64,000 nt of DNA from Platanthera guangdongensis (lineage: Eukaryota; Streptophyta; Magnoliopsida; Asparagales; Orchidaceae), in the NCBI GenBank assembly GCA_039583875.1, contig CM077147.1, positions 154,961,846 to 155,025,845 on the forward strand, given 5' to 3'. Below are positions 19,353 to 53,674 of this stretch, in pieces. How positions within the stretch are numbered: position 1 is the first letter of the stretch; each line of letters begins with the position of its first letter. The notes under the pieces were generated by a model. The model was not told the DNA's origin and did not search any database. It saw only the letters and a list, made by a program, of their open reading frames with translations. The position numbers and the translations under genes were made by a program.

Positions 19353-19357
19353 AGCTG

Positions 19358-26258: not shown

Positions 26259-26278
26259 TCTTTTAAGAGGGGGAGAGT
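26259..26278 (+). other. Polypurine tract of B
   Basis: 'ttttaagagggggagagt' ends exactly at the 3' LTR start. Confidence 0.9.
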
Positions 26279-32446: not shown

Positions 32447-32890
32447 ACCACAGAACAGCGGTGTCGACACCAGCCGGCCGTGTCGACACTAGCCGGCAGT
32501 GTCGACACAGCAGTGTAGACACCCGCCAGCCAGCGGTGTCGACACACCTGTGTCGACACCGGCCTGCAGTGTCGACACCCGACAGCCAGCGGTGTCGACA
32601 CACTGTGTCGACACCGGCCGGCAGTGTCGACACAGCAGTGTCGACACTCGACAACCAGCGGTGTCGACACACTGTGTCGACACCGGCCGGCAGTGTCGAC
32701 ACAGCAGTGTCGACACTCGACAACCAGCGGTGTCGACACACTGTGTCGACACCGGCCGGCAGTGTCGACACAGCAGTGTCGATACCCGACAGCCAGCGGT
32801 GTCGACACACTGTGTCGACACCGGCCGGCAGTGTCGACACAGCAGTGTCGACACCCGACAGCCAGTGGTGTCGACACAATGTGTCGACAC
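32447..32890 (-). repeat. 69-bp TGTCGACA tandem repeat, A 5' LTR
   Basis: About five units; the copy number and order of variants differ from the 3' LTR. The long ORFs are artefacts of the 69-bp period. Confidence 0.93.
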
Positions 32891-33120
32891 CAGACGGACC
32901 CGCTCGACGACTCGTCGAGCTCAGCACGACAATCGTGGAGCTCGACGATCGTCGACCTCCAAACAACGCCCAGAAAAACTAACAATCGTCGAGCGGATCT
33001 CGACGATCGTCGAACCCAGACAGCGACTAGAAAGGAAAGCGATCATCGAGCTCGATCGTCGAACCCAGAGAATAAAATAAGATAAAATCAACATAGCAAT
33101 GTTGGTTCGACGAACTGGAC
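32891..33120 (-). repeat. CGTCGA-type cluster, A 5' LTR
   Basis: Repeated 'ctcgacgatcgtcgacc', 'aatcgtcgagcgg' and 'ggttcgacgaac' motifs, as in the 3' LTR. Confidence 0.85.
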
Positions 33121-34012
33121 GAGCAAGACAAAAAAATCAATCAATTAAGTTTTCCAAATGCGAAAATTTCCGTTTCTGCCAAGGATTCAAGAATTCAGCT
33201 GACTGAATCGAAGAGATGCGAAAGCGCACTAACGGCGACGCGCCACCAACCGAACGCTAGAGTAACGCCCTTACGTCACAAAGATGCCAACCAGGGGAGA
33301 CAATAATGCCGAAAAAAGCAGGGGCGTTACAATAGCTGAGTTGTGCATCTTTTGCGAAATAAAAAATTTAACGATCTAAGCACAGAAAATCAAACCAAAC
33401 AATCATAGACAACAGCAAGAATTATAGTGGTTCCCCAACCTTGGGTATATCTACTTTCCACTCATCGATCTAGCAAAGCACTAGACTCGGCTACTCCACT
33501 AATCTCGGATTGAAAACAATCATACACCTCCGAACAACGTTCCTACAACTCGATCCGTAAACTGGATCTACACTCAGAAGATAAAACTTCCTACAAGAAC
33601 TCGGAGAAAACAGCTCCTACAACTCGGAGAAAGATCTCCTATAAGAATAGAATGAAATAACAAATACAAACAGTGATTTGTTCTCAGATCTGAAATGCTT
33701 TTGTCTGTTCTTCTTTCTTTGAGCTTTGCGGCTTTATCAGAATTTGTTAAAGAAGAATCGGCAATATCTCTGGATCTGCAATATCTCTGGACTCACACGA
33801 TCAAGTAGAAGATCTGTCGTTTGAAAAGAAACTCGATCTGTGAATTAACTTCTCTTAATCGATCTGGATCGAAAGCGCTTTGGCGATGAAGAAGATGATC
33901 AGCGGCTCTCGATTTGGAAAGAAAAAATCGGATTCAGAAATCTTAGAATTACTTCTTGTGACGGCTGTAATTCTTCTTAATTCTTCTTAGGATTGGAGGA
34001 AAATTACAAGAC

Positions 34013-34022
34013 CTTATATAGG
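34013..34022 (-). promoter_or_regulatory. TATA box of the D LTR
   Basis: The minus strand reads CTATATAAGG, about 120 bp downstream of the nearest CTCGAG motif. Confidence 0.65.
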
Positions 34023-34139: not shown

Positions 34140-34790
34140 TGTTCTCGAGAAGAAGATTTTTACTCGAGAACAAATGACTTCTATTTTCGAGAAAAATAAG
34201 GAAGTTCTCGAGAGAAAGACTTAGAGAAAAATAACGTGGAGAGAGAAAACAACATTCTTGGGAATGAAGGAAAGTACTCACGAAAAATAGTTGATTGTTC
34301 TCGAGAAAAAATATTTTATACTCGAGAATAAAAGGCTGTCTCGAGAAAAATTACTTAGAAAAATATGTGGAGGTGGAAATCTGCAGTGTCGAGAAGAAAA
34401 GAAGTGCTCGAGAAAAATGATGTATTGTTCTCGAGAAGAAACATTCTGTTACTCGAGAACAAATAATCATCCCGAGAACAAAAGTCGGGCTCTCGAGAAA
34501 AATACATTGGGTCTCGAGAAATCATTTCTACATCTCGAGAACAGAAGATAGTCTTGTCGAGAATAATTTTATTCTTCTCGGGAAAAAGACTTAGAAAAAT
34601 ATTTATCTAGAAAACAAACAACTCGAGAAGAAATGTTACATATTACTTGAGAACAAAAGCCCTTCTCGAGAATAATATTAAGCTTTCTCGAGAACAACTT
34701 TTGTTACTCGAAATTAAGACAAGTCTTACTCGAGAAATATCATAAGTCCTTTTCGAGTACCAATATAGTACTCGAGAAAAAGACTTAGGA
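34140..34790. repeat. TTCTCGAGAA array in U3 of the D LTR
   Basis: More than 20 copies or variants of the palindrome TTCTCGAGAA (core CTCGAG) in 650 bp, e.g. 'gttctcgagaagaa' and 'tactcgagaacaaa'. The spacing is irregular, 20-40 bp, in an AT-rich background. The same motif array recurs inside D at 50703-51103. Confidence 0.95.
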
Positions 34791-35094
34791 CTTTTTCTGA
34801 AAAACTGAAAAATCTTAATTCTTCATAAAAATCAGCATCCTTCTTTTCTCTTGCCTTTATTGCTTGAAAACAAAGTGTGTCCCAATAGAGAGGCTACACA
34901 TGAGTCAACACCATGGATCACACAATAAGGGATTATATTGTATGGTCCTGTGTTTGGAGACTGACATTTGTCTACACTTAGTAATTAAGTCCTGTAAATA
35001 CTTAACAAAAAGAGCATCAAATACAAACTTAATTCATCTTAGTTCAAGGGTGACTTCATACAAATCTGGGCTATTGTGGATGCAATACCCAACA

Positions 35095-35110
35095 ATCCCC
35101 CCCTATTTGT
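35095..35110 (-). other. Polypurine tract of D
   Basis: The minus strand reads 'caaataggggggga' directly before the LTR start. Confidence 0.88.
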
Positions 35111-35476
35111 AAAAGTTAGAACCCTCTACACTAAGGTGAATTATATTAAGAAAAAAACACATAAGGAAACTAATAGCATGAAAATTTGGAGAATGATGTA
35201 ATATGTAAAAATCAGATCAGAATTAGAAGTTCATATAAGCAGAAAATTATCCAAGAGAATTAAATTCTACAATTTCAAAAATGAACTTCCATTATCTTTA
35301 GTTTACTGATCCTGTGAATGTAGTTTTTCATGTCTCTCTTGCTTCTCCTGTTGTCTCTTTTGATAACTAAAAGGCTTGGGAAAATACTTCGGAGGTGTAG
35401 GTGGAGCCTTAGGATTATTTCTTCCATATATTCTATCATAAATCCTAATCTTTGTAAGTGACTTCTCATATAACTC

Positions 35477-36398
35477 TCATTCATTTGAGCTGTAATGCAA
35501 GCTTCTATTTTCATTGAAGTCAACCACAAGCTTCAGAGTTTCCAAAATAAGGGATTTGGAGGTTGGACTCCAAACTTCAATATATTCTTGGGGTCTTTTC
35601 CCTTCTGCTTCTGGATGTGGAGTTGATCTACTAGCAGAGGCTCTATCATCATACTTCCTTCTCTTGGCTTTTTGAACTTTTGGAGGATGAGGAGGCATTA
35701 CTGTTTGTTCAGATTCCCATACTTGTTCATAAACATCAGGAGGGGGACCTTCATAGTAATCTGGAGGAGGTCCTTTAAAGTGTGCTGGAGGTGGTCCCTC
35801 AAAATACTCTGGAGGTGGAGAAAATGTAGGCCTGTTGACATCTAGATTTACAGGAGGAGGAGCATTGGGATCCATAGCAAGTTCAGGAAATAACTGATTG
35901 TGCATCCATATAGAAGTATCATAAGTATATAACATGGTGCTCTTGACTTCTTTAAGAACAGAGGTCTGAATCTCTTTTAGCTGATATTCCCACTGATTTT
36001 TCATTGTTACAGCTTGTTTTTCTATAAGTTTCTTCACTTTATCATCCCCCTTTCTGACTTCTAGGAAGAGGGTGCTGATGACATCTTCTTTAAATTTGCC
36101 AACCTCTTCACAAGTTTTAAAATTTCTTTCATCACCTCTCTTGTATAGGAGAATTTGATTATTAGCAAGCGTGACTGATTGCTCCGTAACAATACCAATG
36201 TTACTAATTGTATGATCAATAGCTTTGCCACCTATTTGCAGGAGCCTTTCAAATTCATCTGTATTGTTTTGGATTTCAGCAAATCCTCGACTCATTTCTT
36301 TTTCCAAGGTACATACTTTATCAGTGACAACCTTCAGAGAATCATCAAAGTACTTTTTCTGAGCAGCAAGCATAGCTTCAATTTTATAAAGAATGACA
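35477..36398 (-). pseudogene. C-terminal part of D third ORF (ORF3)
   Basis: The frame opens at the border with element E and runs to a stop at 35477. The first part is coiled-coil-like ('KKYFDDSLKVVTDKV', 'LEKEMSRGFAEIQ'). A proline-rich repeat follows ('PPPEYFEGPPPAHF') and then a basic cluster, 'KVQKAKRRKYDD', that looks like a nuclear localisation signal. I see no hydrophobic transmembrane stretch or signal peptide, so an envelope role is not supported. The N-terminal part lies at 49073-50615 beyond E. Confidence 0.75.
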
Positions 36399-37239
36399 TG
36401 AAAGTGATGTGTTAGATCTGAAATACTCTAGAGGGGGGGTGAATAGAGTATTCTTAAATACTTAAAATCATTTACAACTTTTGTTGTAATTCTGAAAGTG
36501 CATAAACAACTTAATAAAATATAAACACAGCAATCCTAAAAAGCACAAACACAGCAAGAACAAAAAGAAGGGGAAACCAGACAACACAAGAAATTTATAG
36601 TGGTTCCCCAACCTGGGTACATCCACTCTTCTACCACCCTGGTAGGAATCCACTCAGATTTTTGATCAGGTGCCTGACACCAATGAGCTTTTGATCAGGT
36701 GCTCAAAAACCAAACCTCAAGTCTTTTGGTCAGGTGACTTGCAACCAAGAATAACTTTTGTAGGGAGTTATAACCCTTTATACAGTGGGGGGGGGGGGGT
36801 GAGTGATGATATTGACTTCTCTTTCTCAATATACAACTGCGAAGACTTGTGGATATGATTTTTAGCAAATGGCTCCCCCTGTGATGTAGAATGGTTCAGG
36901 GAAATCTGGAGCTTTTCTTCAGGGTGATAGGTCTTCTTTCTTTAAGTTTAGACCAGAAAGATCTTCAGGAACTTCTTGACAGATGGAATAGTTATTGTCC
37001 TTTGAAGTGTCCTGGAGAGTTGAAGAATGAAGACTCTTGATTTTGACTGATTGTTCTTCTTCAGGTAGCAGATGTTCTTCGAGTCTGGGGATTCTTGAGT
37101 TGCTGTATCAGAGTTCTGAAAGAGAGAGCAGAGAGTTTCTTATTGCAGACTGATTGTGATTTTCTGTCTGTGTCTCTATGTTCTATTCTCCTATTCTCTG
37201 TGTATTCTGCTCTACTGTCCAGGAAGGAAGAGGAAACTT

Positions 37240-37247
37240 CTTTTATA
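37240..37247 (-). promoter_or_regulatory. TATA box of the E 3' LTR
   Basis: The minus strand reads TATAAAAG, downstream of the TCGTCGA array. It is conserved at 47981-47988 in the other LTR. Confidence 0.65.
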
Positions 37248-37489
37248 TTATCTGTCAGGAAATTATCATTCAAAATTTGAATTCCTCTACAATCAATGCT
37301 GATGGCCTTGAGAATAAACTGCATTGATTTATTTCCCCAACTATCCCATGGAAAAACAACAAGCAATAATCCTGGAGAAGACCATAATTAATGCTTTGTC
37401 TAACATCATATTCAGAGAATATTGAAGCATTAATTACTTAGAAATTATTGCATTAGAAAAGGGACAGAAGACTGGAAATGACTAAGTCT

Positions 37490-38140
37490 GGATTCGTCAA
37501 ACAGATAACAGAAATCATCGATCAGAGTCCACAGTTCATTGAGCTGAGAAGTTGTGTTCGTTGACCAGACAGCTTCTATTCGTCAAGCTGAGTTCCAAGA
37601 TCATCGAGCTGAAAACAGAACTGCACTCTCTAGAAACTTTGTCTATTCTATGTATGAAGTCCGTCGAGCTGATAACTGGTTTCGTTGACTGAAGTTCAGC
37701 AAAGTATTTCTGGACTTAGAATATTTCAGATGCTTCTAGAATGAAGTGTTGAAGTGAAGTATCCAGAAATCGTCGACCTAAGAATTTATTTAGTCGAGCT
37801 GAGAACTACTAACTGCTGCTTCATAACTTTTGCCAAAGTGGTCAAAGTTCGTCGAGCTGAGAATCTTGAATTCGTCGACTGGAGATGATTCTGGACTTAG
37901 AGAAATTGAGAAACTTCTGGAATAATAAGTTAAAGTAGAGAATCTAGAAATCGTCGACTAGAGAACTAAGTTCGTCAACCTGATTCTAGAGAACAAAGTC
38001 TGGACTTAGAATGCTGAAGGTAGAGTACAAAGATCGTCGACCAGAGAATCAAGTTCGTCGAGCTCAACTCGGAGAATTTTCTCTGAGATTGTCGAGCTGA
38101 GCACGACTATCGTCGACCTAAGTTTGACGAACGTTGAACT
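37490..38140. repeat. TTCGTCGAGCTGAG array in U3 of the E 3' LTR
   Basis: About 20 variants such as 'gttcgtcgagctgag', 'atcgtcgaccag' and 'tttcgttgactg', with irregular spacing. Located between the LTR start and the TATA box in element orientation. Confidence 0.92.
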
Positions 38141-38316
38141 CATTTTACTGAGTCTTTGGAAAATATCTAAGTCTTGAGTCTCTGGCAGTCTGATGATGGC
38201 TGGTTCATGTGATGTTGAAACTAAGGACTTAGCCTAGACTCTAGGACACAACTATGACCCTGGCTATACAAGATGGGTCACAAGAACCTAGCCCAAATCA
38301 AACTAGGGATCCAACA

Positions 38317-38331
38317 ATCTCCCCCTATTTG
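38317..38331 (-). other. Polypurine tract of E
   Basis: The minus strand reads 'caaatagggggagat' next to the LTR start. Confidence 0.88.
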
Positions 38332-38503
38332 GGTGAGGTCACTAATTACAGACTTAGACTAAACTAAAAATAAACAAAGCAGGAAAAAACATATATCTAG
38401 CAGAGAAAAATGAACACATGCAACAGATATATATATACAGATAAGCTTTGTTCAGAAATAAGAAAGCAGTTATAAACATAACAGAAATTAAATAGTTCAG
38501 AAC

Positions 38504-41338
38504 TTATTTTTTTTGCTTCTTCTCTTTTGGCTTTTCTTCTTTGCTCTTGTCTCCAGACTTGGTAAAAATAATCTCTCTATTTGGATCAGAAGCTTGCACT
38601 TTGGTCATGGTTATATCAGCAGTCCCTATAATCTTCAAAGATGTGGCTCTGGGGACTACTGCTTCTGGGTGCAATTTCATATAATCATCAACATTTAAAA
38701 ACTTGTTAGCTTTCTCAAACCATTTAAGCTCTTCTTTCCTGTATTTTGACATTGTTGTGTATTCTGATGGATCCTTTCCTTCAGCTCTGGCTTTATTGAT
38801 CATAGAAAGGCCAACAAGTTCTTGAAAACTGGCCATCCTAGCTGAAGTACCTATTTCTGGATCTTCAAAGGGTATAGGAGGAGAAGGAAGTCTGTTGGAG
38901 CTTTCAGCTTGTTGATGTTGCTGCTTTTGTTGAGGATATTGCTGCTGTTGATGAGGCTGGTGCTGCTTGCCAGAAGGATATTGTCTTTGCTGGCTGCTTT
39001 CTGTGGATGAGGACCTACCCTGATGTCTTTGATAAGTTTGAAATTGGGTAGTCCTTTGAGAAGATGTTCCTGAAGCACCAGCAGCTGAAGGAAGAAGAGG
39101 AGGGTCCCTTCTGTATTTCTGAGTTGGAGAAGGGGAGTATCTTCTGCTTCTCTTCCTCTCTTTCTGTTCATTTTTAGATAACCACATCCAAGCTGGCATC
39201 CCTTTATATGGAGTTATCTTCTGAAGAATATAGTAGGGAGTGTCATTGGTTGGATTTGGTTTAGGAGCAGGAGGACGTGCTTTCCTCTTCTTAGACACTT
39301 TCTTCTTCTTTGGATCCTCATCAGAATCCTCATCATCATCATCATTAGATCCCTGAGGATTATCATATATATCATTTAAAGCCTTCAGGGCCTCAACAGA
39401 GATAATAGGCTTTTCAGGTTTAGATGGAGCTGGAGGAAAAACTTCAACAGGAACTGGAGAACTAACTCTGACAGTGCTTTCAGCAGCTGCCTTATTCTCT
39501 TCTTCAATGTCAGCCAAGATCAAGGCATCAAGATCTGGCATTGGAGAGTCATCCATAACAAAACTGGTGGCAGAAATAATTGCTAGAGGGGATGGGATGA
39601 CTACAGGTTCTGGAATAACAAAACTGTCTCTTAGTTGCTTGGCAACTTTAGGATTGATAGGGGAAGAATATGGAACAATAGCCAAAGATGGCTTAGTATA
39701 ATCTGCTGGAGGGAAGCTCAAAAATGCAGTATCAAAAATTTTCAACAAATATTCTAAATCTACTGTGGGATTAATGATGAAATCACCAACAGTAATTATC
39801 TCTTCTGGAGCTGACTCTTCTATATCCATGTCAGTCTCAATAAAATTAATAAAATCAATAAAATATGTATTTGTTATTGTTGCTGCCACTGCATCTGTTG
39901 GAGCTGGAGCTACTGAAACTGAAACTGCTGCTATTGTTGGAGCTACTGCAGCTTCTTCATCAAGCATCTCCCCCTGTCAGGTTTCAGTAATAACTGGAGC
40001 CAGGCCCCTAAATGAAGAGGGAGAAGCAGAAATGGCATAGATCTGGGCAGAGAGAGAGGAAATGGAAGTAGCAAGAGGTGTAATGGCCTCTGCTATGAGA
40101 GCTTTGAGGAGGGGTGTGATGAGAGCAATGGCAGATGAGATGGTGGAGGGATCCAGTGGTGGAGTTGTAGTTGGTGTTTCAGATGGTAATTGGGTGGAAA
40201 CATCTGGAGGGATGGTAGATGTTGGGGAGGATGGAGGAGGAGCATCTTGCATTTGGACATCCTGTGGGGATTGATTTGGAGGAGAAGTTGGAGGGGATGA
40301 CAGTAGATTGAAGGATGGTATGGAGGACAAGTGTGGTGGAAGAGGAGATGAAGGTGGTGTTGGAGAAGGGGAGCGTTGATGATATTCCTGAGTAGGGGAT
40401 GAGGGGATGTTAGTAAGATCTAGGGGTGGAGAGGTAGCAGGAGAGGTAACAGGGATAGATGGTTGTGGTTGTGGTTATTGTTGGGGTTGTGGAGTAGAGG
40501 ATATGGTGGAGGAGGGTTGTTGTATAGTCTGATGTTGAGGTGGGAGGACTGTTGTGTGGGGTGTAGAGGGTAGTTGAGTTTGGAGTGCTGGAAGAGATGG
40601 GTATGAGGGTGGAATGATCTCTTCAGCATGGTGGGGAGTGGCTCTAACAGCCCTTGTGCTCTCAGAAGCTGTGGTGGAAGAGGTTGAAGCCTTAGAGGGC
40701 TTGGAGATTGTCCTCTCCCACCTGCCAAACAAGGCACATGTTAGCCTTTTGCTGGCATTTATGAATATGATCGTAGAGACCAGTGATTCAGCAGCCTTTT
40801 CCTTTAAGAAGATCCTTAGGATCCTTCCAAAACAAACTTCCTTTTTATTGTTCTTTTTCCTGATTAGATCAAAGATGATCTGAGCCCAAGCCACTTGCTT
40901 CTTATTAACCACTGCACACATTACCAGAAGCTTATATTCTGCAGATAAGTGCTTCTTCAACAATTTATTAGGGTTATCTCCAGCATAACTCATCATGCTT
41001 AACATCATATCATATTCCTCATTCTCAATTTCCAGTTCTTCTTCTCCATTACTCAAACTAAATATTTCAGTCAAAACGGCGGGAGATAGAGAGATGGAGT
41101 TACCCGCAATTGTTCCAATCATGGTATTCTCCTCTGTAGTTGAAGATGTGTAGACTCATTCTCTAATCTCAGTTCCAGATATTTTAATCCTTGTTGTCAT
41201 CAGATTCTTCAGTTGCAACTCTTGCAAAAGTTCCAGAATATTCAGAAATATCGGGTTTGTATGCTAAAAAGAATCAAAGTCGACATCGAAGCCGGTGTCA
41301 AACTTCATCGCAGCCAATGTTCCCGCTGGAATCGCCAT
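38504..41338 (-). pseudogene. Third ORF (ORF3) of E, 945 codons with four in-frame stops
   Basis: Sireviruses often carry an extra ORF between pol and the 3' LTR. Here one frame runs from ATG 41338 ('MAIPAGTLAAMKF') to 38504 with no frameshift. The only lesions are stops at 41264-41266, 41156-41158, 40475-40477 and 39977-39979. Residues about 75-210 form a compact domain ('SLSPAVLTEIFSLSN', 'QVAWAQIIFDLIRKKN', 'FGRILRIFLKEKA') resembling the plant-transposon-protein domain of such ORFs; D ORF3 aligns with it. The rest is Pro/Ser/Thr/Gln-rich, with an acidic stretch and a basic cluster, 'PKKKKVSKKRKARPP', like a nuclear localisation signal. No signal peptide or membrane segment is seen. Function unknown; a nuclear regulatory role is inference. 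Confidence 0.8.
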
Positions 41339-41416
41339 GAAATCACCTGCAAGAGAGAAAAATGGCGATCAAGTGCAAGGGAACAGAAAGTATGGGACAG
41401 AGGTCGAAGAAAACCT

Positions 41417-41425
41417 AGATATAAG
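41417..41425 (-). promoter_or_regulatory. TATA-like site upstream of E ORF3
   Basis: The minus strand reads 'cttatatctagg', about 80 bp before ORF3 and downstream of the motif array. It is degenerate compared with the equivalent TATAAATAG in D. Confidence 0.35.
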
Positions 41426-41484
41426 GTTTTCCAGAATATGAATCGACAAACTCCGTTCCACGAAAATTAAAACATTCTTTGATC

Positions 41485-41720
41485 TGGGTTCGACGAAATA
41501 ATTTGGAGTTAATGATTCATCGAGCTCAGTCTGAATATTTGAAGACATTTCGTCAAGCTCCATTCGAGGAAAGTTTTCTGAAGTGGATTTGTCGATCTCC
41601 GTTCGACGAAAACAACTTCACTCACAGAGAGTTCGTCGACCTCCGTTCGACGAATATCTCCCGAACTATCCCTAGTTCGTCGAGCTCCATTAGACGAACT
41701 TTGGAAAATTCGTCGAGTGC
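41485..41720. repeat. TTCGTCGAGCT array between pol and ORF3 of E
   Basis: At least eight copies, such as 'ggttcgacgaaat', 'gttcgtcgacctcc', 'gttcgtcgagctcc' and 'aattcgtcgagtg'. This is the same core as in the LTRs of E. The array occupies the gap between the pol stop (41730) and ORF3. Confidence 0.92.
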
Positions 41721-41729
41721 AGACAGAAA

Positions 41730-43190
41730 CTAAACTAAGTCTTCTCCATCGATCATTCCAAGCTGATTTATAAAGAGCAGATGGTTTCTTTCATCCAGAG
41801 GTTTGGCGAAAATGTCAGCTCTTTGTAAATCAGTGTAGATATTGACAAGTTTAATTTTGTTTTTGTCTACACAATCTCTTATGAAATGATGTCTAATATC
41901 TATATGCTTGGTCATACTATGATGGACTGGATTTTGTGCTATGACTATAGCACTTGTGTTATCACAAAGTAGAGTTGAATTATTTAAGTTGAGACCATAG
42001 TCTAGTAATTGATTTTGAATCCACGGCATCTGGGAACAACAGCTGCCAGCTACAATATATTCTGCCTCAGCAGTGGAAGTAGACACAGATGACTGTTTCT
42101 TACAAAACCAGGACACTAATCTCATACCCAGGAACTGGCAGGTTCCTGAAGTACTTTTCCTGTCCACCTTGCATCCAGCAAAATCAGCATCTGAGTATCC
42201 AGTTAAGTCAAATTCTGATTCAGTGGGATACCATAGGCCTAGACTTGGACAACTCTTTATATATCTCAAAATTCTTTTTAAGAAAACAAGATGAGAATCT
42301 TTAGGGTTCACTTGGAACCTAGTACAAAGGTATGTGGCAAACATGATTTAGGTCTCATAGCTGTAAGATATAATAGGGACCCAATAATGCCCCTATATAA
42401 TTTCTGGTCAACAGGTTTCCCATGTGGATCAGAGTTTATTACAGCATTTGTAGTCATAGGTATTTTATTTGCTGAGGCATCAGCCATCCCAAACTTTTTG
42501 ATAAGCTCTTTTGCATATTTAGCTTGGGAGATGAAGATGTCATCAGGGAGCTGCTTCATTTGGAGACCAAGGAAGTAGGAGAGCTCACCCATGCTACTCA
42601 TTTCAAATTTGGAATGCATGAGGTCAGAGAACCTCTTGCACAATTTGGAATCAGTAGACCCAAATATGATGTCATCCACATATATTTGTACTAACAATAT
42701 TTGGTCCTTATAATGTCTAGTGAAAAGTGTCTTATGTATTATGCCTCTAATGAAATTATGCTCTAACAAAAAGCTAGCTAAGGTCTCATACTAAGCTCTT
42801 GGAGCTTGCTTTAGACCATAGAGGGCTTTATGTAATTTAAAAACATAAGAGAGGTGAGTTGGAGAGATAAAACATGGAGGTTGTTCAACATAAACCTCTT
42901 CTTTTAGTACTCCATTCAGGAAAGCACTCTTCACATCCATTTGATAGACCTTGAATTTCTGTAAGGCTGCATAGGCAAGGAATATTCTGATTGCCTCTAA
43001 CCTTACCACAGGTGCAAAGGTTTGGTCATAATTTATTCCTTCCTCTGGCATATATCCTTGAGCAACAAGCCTAGCCTTGTTTCTCACAATCACTCCTTGG
43101 GCATACAGCTTGTTTCTGTAAACCCATTTGGTTCCAATTGCTGGGTAGTTTTGGGGTCTTGGAACCAAATCCCAAACTCTACATCTCTCA
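41730..43190 (-). pseudogene. RT and RNase H of E
   Basis: The RT N-terminal part (43168-42791) has '[20 protein letters not shown]', '[20 protein letters not shown]' (motif A region) and '[11 protein letters not shown]'. The palm continues at 42769-42308 with 'IYVDDIIFGSTDS' (motif C, intact). RNase H at 42344-41730 has 'DLTGYSDADFAGCKVDRKST', 'STSTAEAEYIVAG' and 'IDIRHHFIRDCV', ending near 'LGMIDGEDLV'. Frames change between these blocks through a stop near 42790 and a shift near 42340, so the protein is broken, but all catalytic residues are visible. Confidence 0.9.
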
Positions 43191-43192
43191 AA

Positions 43193-44480
43193 TTAGTTTA
43201 ATTCCTCCTGCATTGCAATGATCCAGTGGGGATCTTTCTCTGCATCATGGATGGATAAATGTTCAACCTGAGAGAGAAAACATACATGCATCAAATCTTG
43301 GTTGAGTTGATTCCTTGTCTGTACACCTACTGATATGTCTCCAATCACTTGAGATCTGGGGTGATCCCTTAGTGTGACAAGATCAGTGGGTGGAGTTGGT
43401 TCTGCAATAGCATTAGGAACTAATTCCTCTTGTGGAATTATGTTTCTTGTTGGGGGAAGATCAATTCCTTCAGTGCCTTCATCTTCACTTTCTTCAATGA
43501 CTTGTGGAGAAGGATGTGTTAGAACCTCTTGGGTAAGGTTAGGTCCATCCAAACTCTCACACAAGTGAGGTACCTACAAAGTGGTTTTGGTAGAAATATC
43601 TTTCTCCTTACAAGACATGTTAGCTTCATCAAATACAACATGAATAGATTCTTCAATTTTTAGTGATGATTTATTAAAAACCTTATAGGCTTTGCTTACT
43701 TGGGAATATTCTAGAAAGATTCTCTCTTCAGCCTTAGCCTCAAACTTTCTAATGTATCTTTTATTATTGTTGTGAACATAACATATACATCCAAATACTT
43801 TAAAATTGTTGATTTTAGGTTGCTTCCCTTTAAGTAATTCATAGGGAGTCCTGTTCTTTAGTTTATGTATCAGGATTCTGTTTAGGACATAATTTGCAGT
43901 GTTTACAGCCTCTGCCCAAAAGGTTAGTAGCATGTAAGCATCTGCAAGTAATGTACCTGCAGCTTCAATTAGTGTCCTATTTTTCCTTTCATCTACCCCA
44001 TTTTGTTGGGGAGTTCTAGGAGCTGAGAAGCAGTGTCTGATACCTTCCTTCTCACAAAACTCATGCATAAGAAGAGACTCAAACTCTGTGTCATGATCAT
44101 TTCTGATCAATGCAACATGAGTAGAGAACTCAATCTGTATGGTCCTGAGAAAATCTGTAAGAACCTTAAAGGTATCTGACTTAGATCTTAGAAAGGACAC
44201 CCCATGTGAACCTTTAGAATTCATCCACTATAACTAAGGTGTAGGATTTCCCTCCTAAGCTTTGCACAGCAATGGGTCCAAAGAGATCTATGTGTAGAAA
44301 ATATAAAATCCTAGGTGAATTACTTTTATTAACAGATTTAAAACTAGATTTAGTTTGCTTGCCTAGTTGACAAGCCCTGCAAAGGCCTTCCTTCTTATAG
44401 GGACCAGAAGGTAAGCCTCTAACAAGGTTGTCTTTTGATAGTCTAGCAATGTTTTTCAAGTTTACATGTCCTAGCCTTTT
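43193..44480 (-). pseudogene. Integrase of E
   Basis: The zinc-binding segment, with 'CRACQLGKQTKSSF', precedes 'LHIDLFGPIAVQSLGG' (first Asp). Then come 'LIRNDHDTEFES' (second Asp) and 'QQNGVDERKNRTLIEAAG' (catalytic Glu), all of copia type. 'FKVFGCICYVHNNN' and the linker toward RT (43564-43193) follow. A frame change lies near 44220 and a stop near 43573. The linker has 'EKDPHWIIAMQEELN', the usual start of copia RT. Confidence 0.88.
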
Positions 44481-44581
44481 ATGTCATAAATCATTCTGAT
44501 TACTGGTTATATTAAGTAAGCAGATATCAGAGTTGGCAGAAAGAAAATCAACTAAGTATATGTTACATTGTCTATTCCCAA

Positions 44582-45107
44582 TTAAAACAGTTTTTTTTCC
44601 TTATTAGCAATAGTGCAAGAAGATGAGTTAAAGTGTACCTGATAACCCTCATCACATAACTGACTTATGGAGATGAGGTTATGCTTGAGTCCTTTGATAT
44701 ATGTCACTTTCTTGAAAGTGACTGCTCCAATCTTCACCTCTCCAAAACCTTTAGACTGACCATATTTTGAATCACCAAAGATAACCTTTGGTCCTAGCTT
44801 GGACTTATAGTTGGTTAAAACGTCCTTGCTGCCAGTCATATGTTTGGAGCACCCACTGTCCAGGTACCATGTTTGATTATTTACTGTACAGCTCTTCACC
44901 TGCAATTAAAAAATAATTAATTGTTCTTGACCCAGGTTACCTTGGGTCCTTTGTATTTTTGATATGAAAAACTAGATATAACAGAGAATTCTGGTTGAGA
45001 TTTATATCCTAGAGGGTGAAATCTTCTAGGTGGTATTACCCAATCAGCTACAGGGTTAAATGGTTTTCTAGAATTATTAGAGTTGCAGTTATAATTAACA
45101 TTCATGT
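44582..45107 (-). pseudogene. Protease of E
   Basis: 'NNQTWYLDSGCSKHMTG' is the copia aspartic protease site (DSG intact). It is followed by 'VTYIKGLKHNLISISQLCDE', leading into the pre-integrase domain. The upstream frame 45105-44917 is a linker ending next to the motif array at 45108-45365. A frame break lies at about 44910. Confidence 0.85.
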
Positions 45108-45365
45108 TAAGTCATTCTGGGTTCGACGAATTTTTGTAAATTCGTCGACCAGAGTTCGACGGATTGGGTTGAGATCGTCGATCTCTGCCCAGAGAATGAA
45201 CATATTCATTTTCTGTGCCCTATGTTCGTCGACCTCTGCTTGACGAACCATACAGAGTTCGTCGATCGTAGTTAGATGAATAATTATAGCTATAGTTTGC
45301 GTTCAGCGTTCGTCGAGTGGGGTTCGATGAACTGACAACATTTCGTCGATCTGAGTTCGACGAAT
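45108..45365. repeat. TTCGTCGAGCT array in the gag-protease linker of E
   Basis: About ten copies of the LTR motif lie inside the gag-pol region. In one minus frame they translate to recurring 'VELRST', 'IEPHST' and 'KQRST' peptides, interrupted by stops. Confidence 0.88.
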
Positions 45366-47032
45366 TCTGCTGAACCTTGTTTTTTACTTGTGGTTTTCTG
45401 ATTTTTGTTGTTTTGACCTATTGATTTTGGAATATGTTCTTTGGTTTGTTTACAGTTTATTATTTCTTTCCCTTTTGCAGAAACAAATTTAATGGGGGTA
45501 GTCAGAATATTTTTCTTGAGGATGGGGGGCAAACTTGATGAAGCACCCAAGCCCAGCTTGCCATTAAGCCTGGCATTTACAGTGCTTGTGATGTCCATCA
45601 ACTTGAGGCTTCTCCCATTGAGAGTTTCCTCAAGTTGTTTAGCCTCACATAACTCAGTTTTTAATAATATGATTTGTTCATTAGCTAGAGTTAATTCATC
45701 CTTTAACTTATTATTTTTTGAATTAACATTTTCTAGGTTTCCTAATTTTTCCCTAAGAGTCTTGATTTCCTTTTATGAGTTAATTAAATCTATACACATG
45801 GTTTTGAATTCAGATTTAAATGAATCAGAACTGTAATCAAAAGAAGATAATACCTGGTCAGCTTCAGATTCTGAAGCTTCTTCATTGTTTGAATCTTCTT
45901 CTTCTAAATGGCTTCTGGAGGCATCAATGACCATTAGGCAGACTTTTTTAGCCCTTGCCTCTTCTTCATCTTCACTAGAGCTGGAAGATGTTGATTCATC
46001 CTCAGTCTCACTCTAGGATTCAGCCACAAAGCATTTCTCTTTCTTCTTGTATTTGCTAGAGGAAGGCCTGCTGTTGTGCTGTCTTCTGGTATCTTTCTCT
46101 CTTCTCTTTTCCTTCTTCTGATTCTCTGGACACTCAGAGATGAAGTGTTCAGGTTTCTTGCAACCAAAGCACACCACTTCTTTAGTTAGTGTTTTGTCGT
46201 ACCTTGGTTTGTCATCCTGCCTTGATGACTTTCCCCTGAAGTCTTTCCTTGCCATTTTGTAGAATCTTTTGGCAAAAAGGCTCATCAGCTCTTCATTTGT
46301 GGTTGAAGTCTCTATCTCCTTAGCAGCTTTGAATGCAATGGTTTGTTCTTTTCTTGCTGGAGGAGGTGTTCTTTGCTCAGCTGCCTCTCTGGATTTTATC
46401 AGCTGTTCATCGGACTTCAGCTTTCCTAAAAGAGATTTAGTGGAAATCTCATTTAGGCTTCTGGGCTCCTTGATAGGCCAGATCCTTGAATCTCATGAGC
46501 TTGGGAAGCACATAAGGATCTTATCATTCATCTTAGTGAGGGTGATGTCCTTGTCCAAGGTTTTTAGCTCATTGATGATTGAGCTTACCCTATTGTGCAT
46601 ATCAGCCACTGACTCAGCTTCTTCTTTCTTAAAATTCTCATACAGTGATATGAGATTAGATCTCCTATCCTTTCTTTCATCTGCTGATCTAGCCACCATT
46701 TGATTTAGGGAGTCCCAAACGGCTTTGGCTGAGGTACATTCAGCCACTTTTTGAAATATATCATCTGACATAGTTTGTGCCAGTATATTCATTGCCTTGG
46801 CATCAACAAACTTTGCCTTCTTCTGGGCTTCAGTCCACTCAGGTGGTGGGACTGCAGTTGTGCTTGAAGATGTTGCAGAAGTATATGCTTGAGGGGGACC
46901 TGTCAAAATGGAGTTGTAGATATCTTCATCAATAGAGTTCATTAACAACCTAATTCTTGCCTTCCAGATGGCAAACTTATTCAGATTACATACTGGAGGT
47001 CTGGTGCTTGCATAGCCCTTGTTCTGTGCCAT
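45366..47032 (-). pseudogene. gag: gag of E and following linker
   Basis: It starts at ATG 47032 ('MAQNKGYASTRPPVCNL'), just inside the PBS. The N-terminal UBN2-type copia gag shows 'KFAIWKARIRLLMNSIDED', 'AVWDSLNQM' and 'ISLYENFKKEEAESVADMHN'. A stop at 46493 breaks the frame. Further down are a CCHC knuckle, 'CFGCKKPEHFISEC' (usual Gly replaced by Glu), a basic region, and acidic serine-rich repeats ('ESTSSSSEDEEEARA'). The last block, 45601-45290, runs into the motif array. Gag packages the element RNA. Confidence 0.85.
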
Positions 47033-47126
47033 GCTGTGTGACTATAAATCTAATGGAAATGAAAAGACAGATCTAACTCAAGATCTTTGGTTCAAGGGTT
47101 AGCTTGTACAACTAAGGGAATCCTCC

Positions 47127-47137
47127 TCTGATACCAA
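47127..47137 (-). other. Primer-binding site of E (initiator tRNA-Met)
   Basis: The minus strand reads TGGTATCAGAG two bases after the LTR end 'ctttca'. Confidence 0.92.
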
Positions 47138-47138
47138 T

Positions 47139-49072
47139 TGAAAGTGATATGTTAGATCTGAAATACTCTAGAGGGCGGGGGAGGTGAATAGAGTATTCTT
47201 AAATCCTTAAAATCTTTTACAGCTTTTGCTTTAATTGTGAAAGTGCATAAACAACTTAATAAAATATAAACACAGCAATCCTAGAAAGCACAAACATAGC
47301 AAGAACAAAAAGAAGGGGCAACCAGACAACACAAGAAATTTATAGTGGTTCCCCAACCTGGGTACATCCACTCTTCTACCATCCTGGTAGTAATCCACTC
47401 AGATTTTTGATCAGGTGCCTGACACCAATGAGCTTTTGATCAGGTGCTCAAAAACCAAACCTCAAGTCTTTTGGTCAGGTTACTTGCAACCAAGAAAAAC
47501 TTTTGAAGGGAGTTATAACCCTTTATATAGTGGGGGGTGAGAGATGATATTGTCTTCTCTTTCTCAATATACAATTGAGAAGACTTGTGGATATGATTTT
47601 TAGCAAATGGATCCCCCTGTGATGTAGATTGGTTCAGGGAAATCTGGAGCTTTGCTTCAGGGTGATAGGTCTTCTATCTTTAAGTCCAGACCAGAAAGAT
47701 CTTCAGGAACTTCTTGACAGATGGAATAGTTATTATCCTTTGAAGTGTCCTGGAGAGTTGAAGAATGAAGACTCTTGATTTTGATTGATTGTTCTTCTTC
47801 TTCAGGTAACAGATGTTCTTCTGGTCTGGGGCTTCTTGAGTTACTGTATCAGAGTTCTGAAAGAGAGAGCAGAGAGTTTCTTATTGCAGTCTGATTGTGA
47901 TTTTTTGTCTGTGTGTCCATGTTCTATTCTCCTATTCTCTGTGTATTTTGATCTACTGTCCAGGAAGGAAGAGGAAACTTCTTTTATATTATCTGTCAGG
48001 AAATTCTTATTCGAAATTTGAATTCCTCTGCAATCAATGCTGACGACCTTGAGAATAAACTACATTGATTTATTTTCTCAACTGTCCTATGGAAAAACGG
48101 CAAGCAATAATCCTAGAGAAGACCATAATTAATGCTTTGTCTAACGGTTATATTCAGATAATATTGAAGCATTAATTACTCAGGAATTATTGCATTAGGA
48201 AAGGGACAGAAGACTGGAAATGACTAAGTCTGGATTCGTCGAATAGATAATAGAAATCGTCGAGCTGAGTCAACAGTTCATCGAGATGAGAAGTTGTGTT
48301 CATCGACCAGACAGCTTCTATTCGTTGAGCTGAGTTCCAAGATCGTCGAGCTGAAAACAGAACTGCACTCTCTAGAAACTTTGCTTATTCTGTGTATGAA
48401 GTTCGTCGAGCTGATAACTGGTTTCGTCGACTGAAGTTCAGCAAAGTATTTCTGGACTTAAAATATTTCAGATGCTTCTGGAATGAAGTGCTGAAGTGAA
48501 GTATCCAGAAATCGCCGACCTGAGAATTTGCTTAGTCGAGCTGAGAACTACTAACTGCTGCTTCATAACTTTTTCCAAAATGGTCAAGGTTCGTCGAGCT
48601 GAGAATCTTGAATTTGTGGACTGGAGATGATTCTGGACTCAGAGAAATTGTGAAACTTCTGGAATAATAAGTTGAAGTAGAGAATACCAAAATCATCGAC
48701 CAGAGAACTAAGTTCGTCAACCTAAGTCTAGAGAACAAAGTCTGGACTTAGAATGCTGAAGGTAGAGTCCAAATATCGTCGACATGAGAATCAAGTTCGT
48801 CGAGCTCAGCTCAGAGAATTTTCTCTGAGATCGTCGAGCTGAGCATGACTATCGTCGACCTGAGTTTGACGAATGTCAAACTCATTTTACTGAGTCTTTG
48901 GAAAATCTCTAAGTCTTGAGTCTCTGGCAGTCTGATGATGGCTAGTCCATGTGATGTTGAAACTAAGGACTTGGCCTAGACTCTAGGACACAACTATGAC
49001 CCTGGATATACAAGTTGGGTCACAAGATCCTAACTTAGTGAACCTAGCCCAAATCAAACTAAGGATCCAACA
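47139..49072 (-). mobile_element. 5' LTR of E
   Basis: Ends match the 3' LTR. It includes a TATA box at 47981-47988 and, upstream of it, the TCGTCGA array at about 48230-48880. Confidence 0.92.
48230..48880. repeat. TTCGTCGAGCTGAG array in U3 of the E 5' LTR
   Basis: Counterpart of 37490-38140, with about 20 motif variants. Confidence 0.92.
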
Positions 49073-50615
49073 TGGTACCTTCAGGGAATATTTCTTACTG
49101 AGTAGATGGAAGAGGCTGAGTAGGGACAGTCCATGGAAGAATTTCTTCAACCACAACTATAGACGTAGAGTCTTTCCTTCTATGTACTGTGTTGATTTCA
49201 TCTTCATTAATTGTGGGCAGTATGGTGGGAATCTGGAAATGAAGACTTGGAAGGGGTGGTACAGTAGCTTAACGTAGAATTTCATCATCTGAATCATGTA
49301 TTGAGACTACTTCATCTTACATATCTTCATATATAGGAGATTTATCAGCTGGAGGAGAGGAATCTTGATTTACTGGATACTGTGCATGTTCTGGGAATTT
49401 TTCTGGTTGAGGAGGAGGAGATTTTGCTGGAGACTTAGCTGGTTGTGCCGGAGACTTAGGAGATGGAGGAAGATCTTCAGAAGCAGGGAAGGGTGGTTCT
49501 GTGGAAGATAATTCATGTATCATTCTATTGATGTCATCTTCAGTAGACTAAAGCTGATCTTGAGTCTGGGCATTTGGCAGATTTTCAGAATCTGGTATGT
49601 CTTCAGCAGCAGGAGAATATGGAATAACTTCAGCAGCAGGAAGAACTATGTTTGTATGCAGTAGAGAAGAAGAGGCAGCAATAGCAGAGGTAGATGGAAT
49701 TTCTTTTGAAGGTAAGTTGGCAGCAGTAGCAGTAACTGAGACTGGAATTTCTGAAGCAGCAACTGGAATATCTTGAGCAGGAATTGCTGAGGCAGTAGGT
49801 ATTGGAGATGGCTGGGCTGAGACAGATGGTGCAGGCTCCACCTCAATAACTGAATCAGTTATTTGATGTGAAGGAGGAGATGTGGTCCTGTCCACATATT
49901 CTATGTCTTTGGCAGCTTTGTATGACTTCTGTAGTTTGACCTCCCATCTCTGGATGGAGGTAATGGAAACCTTTTTCATGTAGTGCAGGGTTATGCCCTT
50001 TTTCATAGGAAAAGCAGCTGGATTCATTTGATTCAGGTATAGAGAAAGTATTCTTCCTTAGTTTGGACTTTTAATGCATCCCTTAATCTTGTCAAAGAGC
50101 ATCATTCCCCACTGGAACTTCTTTCTACATATAAAAACAGTCATTAAATCAAAGAACTCTGGAGTAATGTAACTGATGGAACTGGTTTTACACAGAAGCA
50201 CTTTGCCTAGGATGTCAGCCAATAACTTACTTTCAACATTCATAAACTGTCTTCTGATTGTGTTAGAGGATTGAGGGATTCCACAGAAACTATAGGATCT
50301 CTCATAATCACTGCCTATCAGATCATCTTCCATATCTATTACTAAAAGTTACAGAAGTTGAGAAACAGACAGAGCAGACATCTTTACCTTGAGATACTAA
50401 ACTTTATACTTGATTATTTTGTCATTCCTCTTAACCTTGGCATTCTGGAAGAATTCTTCAACTTCAGAAGTTAGAATTCGGCATGGATGTTCAAGAATAA
50501 AAGACAACCCGGCTGTGTCTAGCAGAAGGAGGACATTCCTGATATCATCTGATATCTCTATAATCCCGGTAGAACAGAGTTCACTTCCGATCCCTAGCTT
50601 TGAATACGAAGCCAT
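49073..50615 (-). pseudogene. N-terminal part of D ORF3
   Basis: ATG at 50615 ('MASYSKLGIGSELCS') opens one frame that continues to 49073, where E entered, with six or more in-frame stops but no frameshift. It holds 'LSFILEHPCRILTSEVEEFF', then 'SYITPEFFDLMTVFICRKKF' and 'WGMMLFDKIKGCI', which parallels E ORF3 ('AWAQIIFDLIRKK'). Next is a Pro/Ala/Ser-rich low-complexity region. The C-terminus resumes at 36398. The start is chosen because a TATA box and the motif array lie directly upstream. Confidence 0.75.
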
Positions 50616-50702
50616 TGTTGTAGAGAAATCGATCTTGGCTGGCCGGCGAATGAGAGAATTGATTTGCGGCAGACGGTGGAGACGGAGGAAGACGAAGCCG
50701 CT

Positions 50703-51103
50703 TTTCTCGAGAAGGGTTTTGAAATCAAGAATAAAAATTTCTTGGACTTATTTCTATTTATAGTTACCTCTAATTTTGATTATTAAACATATAAATAAAC
50801 AATAAAACTACCTAGAAGGAGGCGACTAAGAGCCTGTGTGCCGATATGAAAAATTGACTTTGAAGAAAAAAATTTCCACCGCGTTTCTCGCGTGGACAGA
50901 TTATTCTCGAGAAGGATTTCAGTAGCACTCGAGTATAATAATCTTTGGTCTATAGTAGAATGAGCCTTGTTCTCGAGTAGATATATCATGTTCTCGAGTA
51001 GAATTATTGTTCTTGAGAAATAATATCTTTGTACTCGAGAAGAAATTTCTTTGTTCTCGAGAGGAAGTTTATTGTTCTCGAGTACAAGTGTTGTACTCGA
51101 GAA
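50703..51103. repeat. TTCTCGAGAA array between pol and ORF3 of D
   Basis: About ten copies, e.g. 'tattctcgagaagg', 'gttctcgagtag', 'gtactcgagaagaa' and 'gttctcgagagg'. The motif is the one in U3 of the D LTR (34140-34790), and it fills the gap between RNase H (51178) and ORF3 (50615). Confidence 0.93.
50754..50762 (-). promoter_or_regulatory. Internal TATA box upstream of D ORF3
   Basis: The minus strand reads TATAAATAG, 139 bp before the ORF3 ATG and just downstream of the main CTCGAG array. This layout copies the LTR promoter (array, then TATA) and suggests a separate ORF3 transcript with a short leader. Not demonstrated. Confidence 0.6.
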
Positions 51104-51177: not shown

Positions 51178-52777
51178 TCATTCTCCTCCATCCTTGTTGA
51201 GTATGCCAAGTTCTGTTTTGAAGAACGAGAACTTGGCCTCATCTTGCGGCTTCGTGAAAATATCCGCAATTTGCCTGTCAGTTGGGACATATTGCAGATC
51301 TATGTCCCCATGCTCCACATGCTCCCGGATGAAATGGTATCGTACCTCTATATGCTTTGTCTGGCTGTGAGAGACAGGATTGTTGGCTATTGCAATCACA
51401 CTGGATGAGTCGCAAAACAAAGGAATGTTTTGGACTTGCAGGTTGTAATCCTCTAGTTGGTTCTTTATCCACAGCAATTTTGCACAACAACTGTCGGCAG
51501 AAATGTATTCTGACTCGGCCGTTGAAATTACGACACAATTCTGCTCTTTACTGCTCCATAATATGAGCATCCTTCCAAGGCATTGGCAAGTCCCGGAAGT
51601 GCCCTTCCTATCATCTTTACGACCTGCAAAATCTGCATCTGAGAAACCAATTAGTTCGTTGTCAATACTTCTTGGGTACCATAAGGCAAGATTTTGTGTA
51701 CCTTTAAGGTATCGCAAACTCCGCTTTGCAGCAGCATAGTGAGATTACTTAGAGTTCACTTGAAATCTAGCACACACACATGTTGAAAACATTATACCCG
51801 GTCTACTAGCAGTAAGGTAAAACAAAGATCCAATTATGCTCCTATACTTGGTTTCATCGAAAGGTTTCCCTTTCTTATCCTTGTCCAGAGACATATTTGA
51901 ACCAATTGGAGTCCTCATAGAGGTTGTGTTCTCCATTCTGAATTTCTTAATCAACTTCTTGGTGAATTTCATCTGAGAGATGAAAATCCCATCTTCATAT
52001 TATTTCACCTGAAGTCCTAAGAAATACTTCAGCTCTGCCATACTGCTTATTTCGAACTTCCCTTGCATAAGTTTGGAAAACTTTTTTGCGGAGATTGTCA
52101 TCAGTAGAGCCAAATATAATGTCATCGACATAGATTTACACTAGCAAAATCTTGCCTTTTATTTCCCTAAGAAATAATATCTTATCTATCTTTCCTCTTG
52201 TGAACTTGTTCTCAAGAAGAAAGTTATATAGCATCTCGTACCAAGCTCGAGGAGCTTGTTTCAAACCATATAATGCTTTAAATAAAAGATAGAGATGATC
52301 AGGAAAGTAGAATCAACGAAACCAGGAGGTTGGTCCACATACAGTTCCTCCTTTATGTCACCATTAAGGAAAGCAAACTTCACGTCCATCTGATAGACGG
52401 TGAAGCCCTTAAGTGCAGCATATACTAGGAACAACCTAATTGCCTCCAGCGTTGACACTAGAGCATATGTCTGGTCGAATTTGATTCCTTCTTCTTGTCG
52501 GTATCTTTTGGTGACGAGTCTGGCCTTGTTCTTTATTATTGTTCCATCCTCGTCCATCTTCTTCCTGTAGACCCATTTTGTCCTAATGACATTTTACCTT
52601 TGGGTCTTGGAACAAGCTTCCAGACTTGGCAATGCTTGAACTAATTCAATTCTTCTTCTATTATCATTATCCATGATGCGTCTGAGTTTGCTTCCTCAAA
52701 CTTCTTCGGTTCAACCTGTGATAGAAAACTCAAATATAAATTATCATTTGTTGTACCTCTACGAGTTCTGAGACTGA
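51178..52777 (-). pseudogene. RT and RNase H of D, 5' truncated
   Basis: Right to left: 'LSFLSQVEPKKFEEANSDA' and 'IIEEELN' (pre-RT), '[20 protein letters not shown]', '[20 protein letters not shown]' and '[14 protein letters not shown]'. Motif C is 'IYVDDIIFGSTDD' near 52120. RNase H in one frame at 51717-51178 has 'LIGFSDADFAGRKDDRKGT', 'STAESEYISADSC' and 'HIEVRYHFIREHV'. Several frameshifts occur between 52260 and 51720. The gene begins abruptly at about 52778, where the sequence becomes an LTR of another family. Integrase and everything upstream are missing. Confidence 0.88.
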
Positions 52778-53674
52778 TGAAGAACAAGAAGTTTTGTGTC
52801 TCTATTTCTTATTCTTTGTATGCAGATGTTATCTTCTTTTTCCTTACTGTTAGACTTATTCTATGGTGTTGTTGTGTGTAGTAATCTTCTGAAATTTTCT
52901 TTTATATATTGATTTCTGACTTGAAATTCAAATTCCATGAATTCCTCTGCATATTTTCTGGGAAATGGAATGGTTGAATTTGTCTTCAATGCATTTTCTC
53001 AACTGTCCCAGTAAATATGTTAAGTAATAACTCTGTGAAATCCTCAATTAATGCTGCTGAGAAACGACTATATTCTTGAGAATATAAGCATTAATTATTA
53101 GAGTATTACTTTTTAAATTACTGATATTAAACTTACTTAGTCGATCTGAGAATCTGCAAAGAAGATTAGCCGAGCAGAACCTGGATGGAGTTAGTCGACC
53201 TCAGTAAAGCTTTTGTCGACCTGAGCACCAAGCTCGTCGAGCTGATAATTCTTCTTCATCGAGCTGAGCTCCAGAATTGTCGAACAGAAAATATACTTGC
53301 CAAACAGAGCTCCAAGTTCGTCGAGCTGAGATGGCACTTCGTCGAGCTGAGGTTCTGATATAAGCTCACAATTCGTCGACCGGAGCTAGACTTTCATTGA
53401 GCTCAACTCAGAGAATGAACTCTGAGTTCATCGAGCTGAGTTCGACGATCGTCGAGCTGAGTTCAGCTATCATCGAACACATTTTCTGTAATCTTCAAAA
53501 CTGCCTTGTCTCATAAGTCTTGTATTCTCTGAAGTCTTCTGAAGGTAGGTCTCAGTGACCTAACCAAATGTGATAGACCTAAATCCTGAAACTAACATAT
53601 GACCCTAGACTATATATGGTGGGTCATCAATCCTAATAGTGAACCTAGCTCAAATGACAAGTAGGGTACCAACA
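52778..53674 (-). mobile_element. Partial copia LTR 'F' (5' half) fused to D RT
   Basis: In minus orientation it starts 'tgttggtacccta' at 53674 and follows the E LTR plan ('gagctaggttcac', a TCGTCGA array, then a TATA-proximal region) until about 52778, where it breaks into D RT. The outer flank is not a polypurine tract, so it was a 5' LTR. The family is related to E but not identical. Confidence 0.78.
53140..53475. repeat. TCGTCGAGCTGAG array in LTR F
   Basis: About twelve variants, e.g. 'ttcgtcgagctgagatgg', 'ttcgtcgaccgg' and 'gatcgtcgagctgag'. Confidence 0.9.

Follow-up and report, generated by a model that had tools for sequence, protein, structure and literature searches.

Palindromic motif arrays matched between the long terminal repeats and the ORF3 upstream region of Sirevirus-like elements in Platanthera guangdongensis, with a likely internal promoter

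Sirevirus retrotransposons carry arrays of short palindromes, the RM boxes, which according to the excerpted text of Bousios et al. 2010 (PMC2829016) lie in the long terminal repeats (LTRs) and, in nine elements bearing an ENV-like gene, also before that gene, and are absent from the linker of four elements lacking ENV. A regulatory role and an internal promoter were proposed there, and the promoter could not be conclusively identified. The excerpts of PMC2829016 and PMC3414828 both call the function of the ENV-like gene unproven, and those of PMC3414828 name stop-codon suppression and an internal promoter as its expression routes. Element-specific clusters of short motifs are also a feature of VANDAL elements and their VANC proteins (PMC5735166, excerpts). 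In this study we analyzed a stretch of 64,000 nucleotides from the orchid Platanthera guangdongensis (contig CM077147.1, here C1; C1:154961846-155025845), hereafter the window, in which two Sirevirus-like copia elements, D and E, both on the minus strand, repeat their own motif arrays in the U3 part of the LTR and between pol and the following open reading frame (ORF), ORF3. Two further families, T (a sister of D) and S, were collected from the genome, and whole-genome counts refer to 4.25 Gb.

The arrays are like RM boxes as far as these are described in the excerpts of PMC2829016: they are family-specific palindromes that number 8 or more per element, cluster in the LTR ahead of its TATA box and recur in the linker before the ENV-like gene (30/30 D/T loci, 10/10 fetched E copies and 3/3 S copies). 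They differ in the core, which is CGG-CCG in the RM boxes, with Tnd-1 as the published exception, and TCGA in all four families here. Arrays in the LTR and before ENV, together with the idea of an internal promoter, are thus not new and were published in 2010. Relative to the same excerpts, the new elements are the TCGA core, a phasing of about 21 bp and an array embedded in coding sequence at the gag-pol junction (neither of which was found in that text), and fairly strong evidence for co-variation; the internal promoter was left inconclusive there, whereas three of the present families have a TATA box at a recurrent position. With VANDAL/VANC (PMC5735166, excerpts) the shared feature is short element-specific motif clusters that differ between related elements, but VANC motifs often stand in tandem repeats and VANC binding has been demonstrated, whereas the present case concerns a copia retrotransposon with unrepeated spacers and a putative motif binder. 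SIRE1 likewise has an extra ORF after pol; in that element, by the excerpts of PMC2829016, just a stop separates pol from ENV and stop-codon suppression is used, whereas the pol-ORF3 gap here spans several hundred bp and holds an array, accompanied by a TATA box in D, T and S.

Arrays in U3 and before ORF3 had been proposed for both elements in the initial annotation, and motif counts bear this out (coordinates in Table 1). CTCGAG was found 17 times in the U3 of D and 9 times in its pol-ORF3 interval (50704-51103; 8 upstream of the internal TATA box, 1 downstream), against a mean of 0.5 and a maximum of 5 in U3 and a mean of 0.2 and a maximum of 3 before ORF3 in 2000 simulations using each region's own dinucleotides. 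For TCGACGA/TCGTCGA in E, the counts of 7 (3' U3), 10 (5' U3) and 6 (pre-ORF3) compare with simulated maxima of 4, 3 and 4. A chance origin was therefore rejected, as the counts of both elements exceed all 2000 simulations. The motif TTCTCGAGAA with at most one mismatch has 31 matches in the window against 3.2 expected, a number reached by 0/100 shuffles, and the D-type pair TTCTCGAGAA-N11-TTCTCGAGAA occurs 5574 times genome-wide against 0 for the control, while the looser CTCGAG-N15-CTCGAG is uninformative as a count (74178 against 78847 in the control). The motifs do not mix: TCGWCGA was not found in the D arrays, nor CTCGAG in the E arrays. Simple copying of LTR sequence to a place before ORF3 was also rejected, since the LTR and internal arrays of D match only in short stretches.

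The internal array was then looked for in other copies. A protein search with the ribonuclease H (RNase H) end of D pol, in which the best 150 of 211,779 first-look candidates were scored, returned 30 loci, the window copy included, which represent closest relatives only; all 30 hold 8-18 CTCGAG in the 1.56 kb that follow the RNase H match. Comparison of RNase H DNA assigns 28 of them to T and 2 to D, the two families being 83% identical in this region. For E, the best 150 of 214,950 candidates were scored and 10 copies, again closest relatives only, were fetched, each with at least 5 pre-ORF3 dyads (at most 4/16 mismatches). The S family, whose RNase H shares, over the matched part, 65-67% identity with that of D, and 59-60% with that of E, has 13-15 copies of TGTCGACA between pol and ORF3 in 3/3 copies, mostly straight after pol, with a few beyond a TATAAATAGG box and ORF3 next; its ORF3 is homologous to that of D (28-34% identity over 76-130 residues), and the 3' LTR adjoining one S copy holds 28 TGTCGACA plus TATAAATAGG. 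The pair TGTCGACA-N13-TGTCGACA was counted 347,047 times per strand genome-wide against 1 for the reversed control, and S probably makes up a major part of the genome. A separate DNA search with the pre-ORF3 region of D (best 40 of 1212 candidates scored, 84-100% identity) selects for the array and cannot test its presence.

An LTR of the right family lay at the expected distance in 6/9 D, 6/8 T/D-like and 2/6 E fetches, and the misses were excluded from the LTR counts, except that the S-type LTR of L089, one of the two T/D-like fetches concerned (L087 and L089), was kept in the S counts. The LTRs examined carry 17-20 (D), 15-25 (T), 28-29 (S) and 7-17 (E) motif copies. An apparent counterexample, L056/L089, with CTCGAG before ORF3 and GTCGAC in the next LTR, was dropped, as an N run and non-D sequence lie between the two and they were not shown to be one element. 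At C1:6279293-6300052, clusters of T-family LTRs recur every ~10 kb, as if tandem elements shared LTRs.

Co-variation was measured with profiles of the five bases flanking TCGA, and at this level the motif is family-specific and its LTR and pre-ORF3 versions change together, which agrees with the earlier claim of family-specific motifs at the same position and with the co-variation check proposed alongside it. The divergence between LTR and pre-ORF3 profiles was 0.15 bit in D, 0.26 in T, 0.10 in S and 0.25 in E (0.28 between the E LTR and the E gag-pol array), against 0.67-2.57 bit between families; the closest profile was that of the own family in 4/4 families, and the diagonal sum was reached by the true pairing alone (1/24, the smallest result four families allow). 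By majority per locus, the arm type is TC in 7/7 D LTRs and 30/30 D pre-ORF3 arrays, AC in 7/7 and 29/29 of T, and TG in 2/2 and 3/3 of S, and all 18 LTR/pre-ORF3 pairs assumed from their distance to come from a single element (7 D, 7 T, 1 S, 3 E) were concordant. The pre-ORF3 arms of D are less uniform (411 TC and 199 AC half-arms). Common to D, T, S and E is the TCGA core, in the variants CTCGAG, GTCGAC and TCGTCGA dyads.

A spacing peak at 21-21.5 bp was obtained for the tested D and E LTRs and for the D pre-ORF3 array; in T, 299/326 gaps measure 20-23 bp, and the gaps following directly on pol in S span 19-23 bp. Motif columns are more conserved than spacers, despite their CpG content, in D (0.964 against 0.904; 0/490 shifts), T (0.89 against 0.75; 0/290) and E (0.928 against 0.884; 2/251), which strongly indicates selection on the motif at the DNA level. 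Pairs of spacers within 10 arrays have an identity of 0.36-0.46, where composition predicts 0.25-0.28, and are thus close to unrelated; units share motifs and not spacers, and recent tandem duplication of units is therefore ruled out. When six LTRs of T were compared with that of D, the two best matches were short or fell close to the TATA box or further on in the LTR, and U3 still holds 15-25 motifs.

Element E carries a third array at the gag-pol junction, which was absent from the initial annotation and was found again in 6/10 fetched E copies. The remaining four had no match to the E gag-pol junction; among them, L107 holds gag, and L113 has E-like dyads that match neither this junction nor the E pre-ORF3 region. 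In the copy with an open frame, L110, the array encodes SSN-DRRT-like repeats, in which 11/19 Ser codons are TCG and 11/14 Arg codons are CGA; in six comparison segments (what is left of the L110 stretch, the gag stretch of L107 and four pieces of the window) TCG accounts for 0/131 Ser and CGA for 0/74 Arg codons. The count for the array refers to this one open copy; in the other five copies with the array, the peptide pattern is the same apart from changes or stops. Because these codons are otherwise unused, the nucleotide motif, and not the peptide alone, appears to have been kept, and an array written into coding sequence in this way is evidence for selection on the motif itself. Such an array is perhaps a peculiarity of E, since between the 5' LTR and the pre-ORF3 region no motif pair of the spacing searched for was found in an S element and a T element, one of each. 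The spacing of the third array fits 17 bp best and is above random also at 10.5 bp. An LTR fragment, F (window 52770-53690), holds an E-like TCGWCGA array with a best fit of 10.5 bp and is ~70% identical to the E LTR over the best 294 bp. Elsewhere in the window, a direct-repeat pair at 19300-20300 and 26200-27200 has TCGTCGA/TCGACGA clusters (9 and 10) and is perhaps an LTR pair with a related motif, and GTCGA-rich 69-bp tandem repeats at 6072-6650 and 32428-33000 are duplicated ~26.4 kb apart.

Downstream of the internal arrays, the canonical TATAAATAG reported for D is present, its last base lying 139 bp before the ORF3 ATG at 50615. Among relatives, TATAAATA was found in 27/30 D copies, TATATATA or TATAAATA in 27/28 T copies and TATAAATAGG in 3/3 S copies, and the first TATA base precedes the ORF3 ATG by 147 bp in D (window), 151 bp in T (L102), 106 bp in S (L099) and 85 bp in E (weak site). 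The weaker TATA-like site reported for E does exist in the window copy, but was not found in 3/10 other E copies. An internal promoter driving ORF3 is likely on this architecture.

For the N-terminus of ORF3, the ratio of non-synonymous to synonymous substitution rates (dN/dS) was 0.13-0.16 in the 4/9 D-T pairs with estimable dS, 0.14-0.20 in three T pairs, 0.19-0.39 in three D pairs and 0.04-0.09 in three S pairs. The D-T and S values are rough, as dS approaches saturation in the D-T comparison (2.4-2.8; not estimable in 5/9) and is high within S (1.0-2.2). Judged by these low ratios, the ORF3 N-terminus is under purifying selection and kept as a protein. The N-termini of D, T and S are homologous, and E has an ORF3 that is broken in the window copy. 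Pfam scans gave a match to PF20167 (Transposase_32) at the N-terminus in open relatives of D (E-value 3.1e-7) and T (9.2e-8), both below the curated cut-off, and in S (0.028); the E piece had no Pfam match, and the only other output on the ORF3 pieces was one chance-level match (E-value 0.04). The resemblance to Transposase_32 says nothing about DNA binding. A VANC domain was not found in these scans, which included no direct comparison with a VANC sequence, no PDB relative was found for the single D piece searched, and a single-sequence AlphaFold fold of the E piece was uninformative (mean predicted local distance difference test score, pLDDT, 38.5). The initial annotation had described ORF3 of both elements as having a basic cluster resembling a nuclear localization signal and no membrane segment; the cluster is clear in E and below threshold in the D pieces, and 19-residue hydropathy is at most 1.51 in correctly framed open pieces.

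Taken together, these data suggest that each family would possess a private palindromic DNA-binding site, with a TCGA core and family-specific arms, in arrays whose units are phased at about two helical turns. The first array lies in U3, upstream of the LTR TATA box, and the second, between pol and ORF3 and upstream of its own TATA box, would form a second, internal RNA polymerase II promoter for an ORF3 mRNA. We consider this proposal as a whole rather probable; arrays and co-variation can be read from the copies compared, and we infer the promoter function from architecture. Matched motifs, phased arrays and recurrent TATA boxes in four families of one genome give exact places at which the promoter of the ENV-like gene can be tested. 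Several observations weigh against the proposal. The internal arrays of E do not fit the 21 bp period, its arms give a weak profile (0.63 in the best column of the LTR, 0.54 in that before ORF3), its internal TATA box is poor (the weak TATATCTAGG), and its gag-pol array does not lie upstream of a gene start, so that a promoter cannot explain every array. The internal TATA box of T is a TATATATA run, the TATA windows rank 21/271 (D) and 20/260 (T) for conservation, i.e. in the top 8% and not at the top, and the array-to-TATA distance is alike in LTR and pre-ORF3 region for D (~130 bp) and not for S or E. The 30 D loci used for motif conservation and TATA counts were selected by similarity to the pre-ORF3 region itself, the ORF3 ratios are rough as stated, and the arrays are part of the transcribed RNA, so that a role at the RNA level is possible.

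The identity of the binder is the weak step of the proposal. A factor that tracks the element, either the ORF3 product or another element protein, is attractive because the motif changes jointly at separate places of one element and differs between sister families of this genome, but a host factor is likelier. Host transcription factors, one per arm type, may have been recruited independently by each family, with ORF3 uninvolved, a reading compatible with the internal promoter; dimeric factors typically have sites of this kind, palindromic in the core and flanked by arms. The excerpts of PMC2829016 agree with it in that RM matches are mainly to stress factors and RM arrays occur also in the LTRs of ENV-less elements. 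Against it, D and T would need to have switched factor in step at two arrays, and in E the family motif stands in three separate places; we regard it as a possible explanation, although not the favored one.

It is possible that the ORF3 product binds the motif. The fuller version, in which it would be a self-specific DNA-binding activator or anti-silencing factor that binds the family palindromes both in the LTR and in the promoter of its own gene, giving positive feedback, and co-evolves with the motif, with no cross-activation between sister families and, in E, a site written into gag-pol codons, is doubtful. A related reading, compatible with the internal promoter, is that the arrays mainly recruit ORF3 or another element protein as a self-specific anti-silencing factor and do not serve as core promoter. 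It would account for element-specific, CpG-bearing clusters at two or three places, including the E gag-pol junction where a promoter is unexpected, and it agrees with the motif co-variation between sister families, the conserved ORF3 N-terminus and, in the excerpts of PMC5735166, the clustering of VANC targets in non-coding DNA and their differences among related elements. On the other side, ORF3 has no recognisable DNA-binding domain, the E-piece fold offers no guidance, VANC motifs often stand in tandem repeats whereas the spacers here are not repeated, and Opie-2, Prem-2, Osr8 and Tnd-1 are listed as RM elements without ENV (PMC2829016, Table 3 as excerpted), in which ORF3 cannot be the binder because they lack the gene; we think this reading unlikely. 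That the arrays have no promoter role, being byproducts of copying between LTR and internal region in the course of reverse transcription or targets of host small RNAs, is quite improbable: exchange would keep related arrays alike and LTR palindromes of maize Sireviruses are hotspots of small-RNA mapping (PMC5311732, excerpts), but matches between the LTR and internal arrays of D reach at most 144 bp on either strand and consist mostly of motifs in register, the identity of spacers within arrays is close to what composition predicts, phasing and the higher motif conservation are left unexplained, and the TCG/CGA codons of the E gag-pol array are absent from the other E segments counted.

The coordinates of all features are listed in Table 1. 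E is inserted within ORF3 of D and has a complete LTR pair with 92.4% identity between the 5' and 3' LTRs, and D is represented by its 3' LTR, ORF3 and part of pol, with no second LTR seen within the window; by eye, D pol apparently breaks off near fragment F. The polypurine tract is the exact Sirevirus octamer in E, ~10 bp before the 3' LTR, and one base off in D, and in both elements the long linker from pol to the 3' LTR contains an ENV-like ORF. A C-rich stretch stands at the 3' end of both E LTRs and was not seen in the D stretch, where the LTR end is uncertain. The description as Sirevirus-like was made from the polypurine tract and the linker ORF.

Table 1. Features of elements D and E in the window (positions count from the first nucleotide of the window)
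Feature	Position	Strand	Remarks
D LTR TATA box CTATATAAGG	34012..34021	-	~130 bp after U3 array
D U3 array, 17 CTCGAG	34142..34778	-	arms mostly TTC-TCGA-GAA; spacing in ~21 bp multiples
D polypurine tract AGGGGGGG	35097..35104	-	one base off Sirevirus octamer AGGGGGAG
D ORF3, C-terminal part	35477..36427	-	split from N-terminal part by E insertion
E 3' LTR	36427..38309	-	edges by eye
E U3 array in 3' LTR	37490..38140	-	7 TCGACGA/TCGTCGA
E polypurine tract AGGGGGAG, exact	38319..38326	-	~10 bp from 3' LTR
E ORF3 region	38504..41338	-	broken by stops in window copy
E weak TATA-like site TATATCTAGG	41414..41423	-	not found in 3/10 other copies
E pre-ORF3 array	41485..41720	-	23-bp dyads TTCGTCGA-N7-TCGACGAA; 6 TCGACGA/TCGTCGA
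E third array, gag-pol junction	about 45120..45375	-	8 motifs, same dyads; coding in open relative
E 5' LTR	47165..49073	-	edges by eye
E U3 array in 5' LTR	48230..48870	-	10 TCGACGA/TCGTCGA
D ORF3, N-terminal part	49078..50615	-	in-frame stops in window copy
D lone motif	50704..50713	-	between internal TATA box and ORF3 ATG
D internal TATA box TATAAATAG	50754..50762	-	TATAAATA near same place in 27/30 copies
D pre-ORF3 array, 8 CTCGAG	50904..51103	-	~21 bp spacing
D pol, RNase H end	51181..51744	-	anchor for relative search

Outside the two elements, a sequence resembling 5S ribosomal RNA was found on the minus strand at window 55324-55464 (Rfam RF00001, 36.7 bits; gathering threshold 38), within an inverted repeat at 55101-55687, and may belong to a Cassandra-type element.

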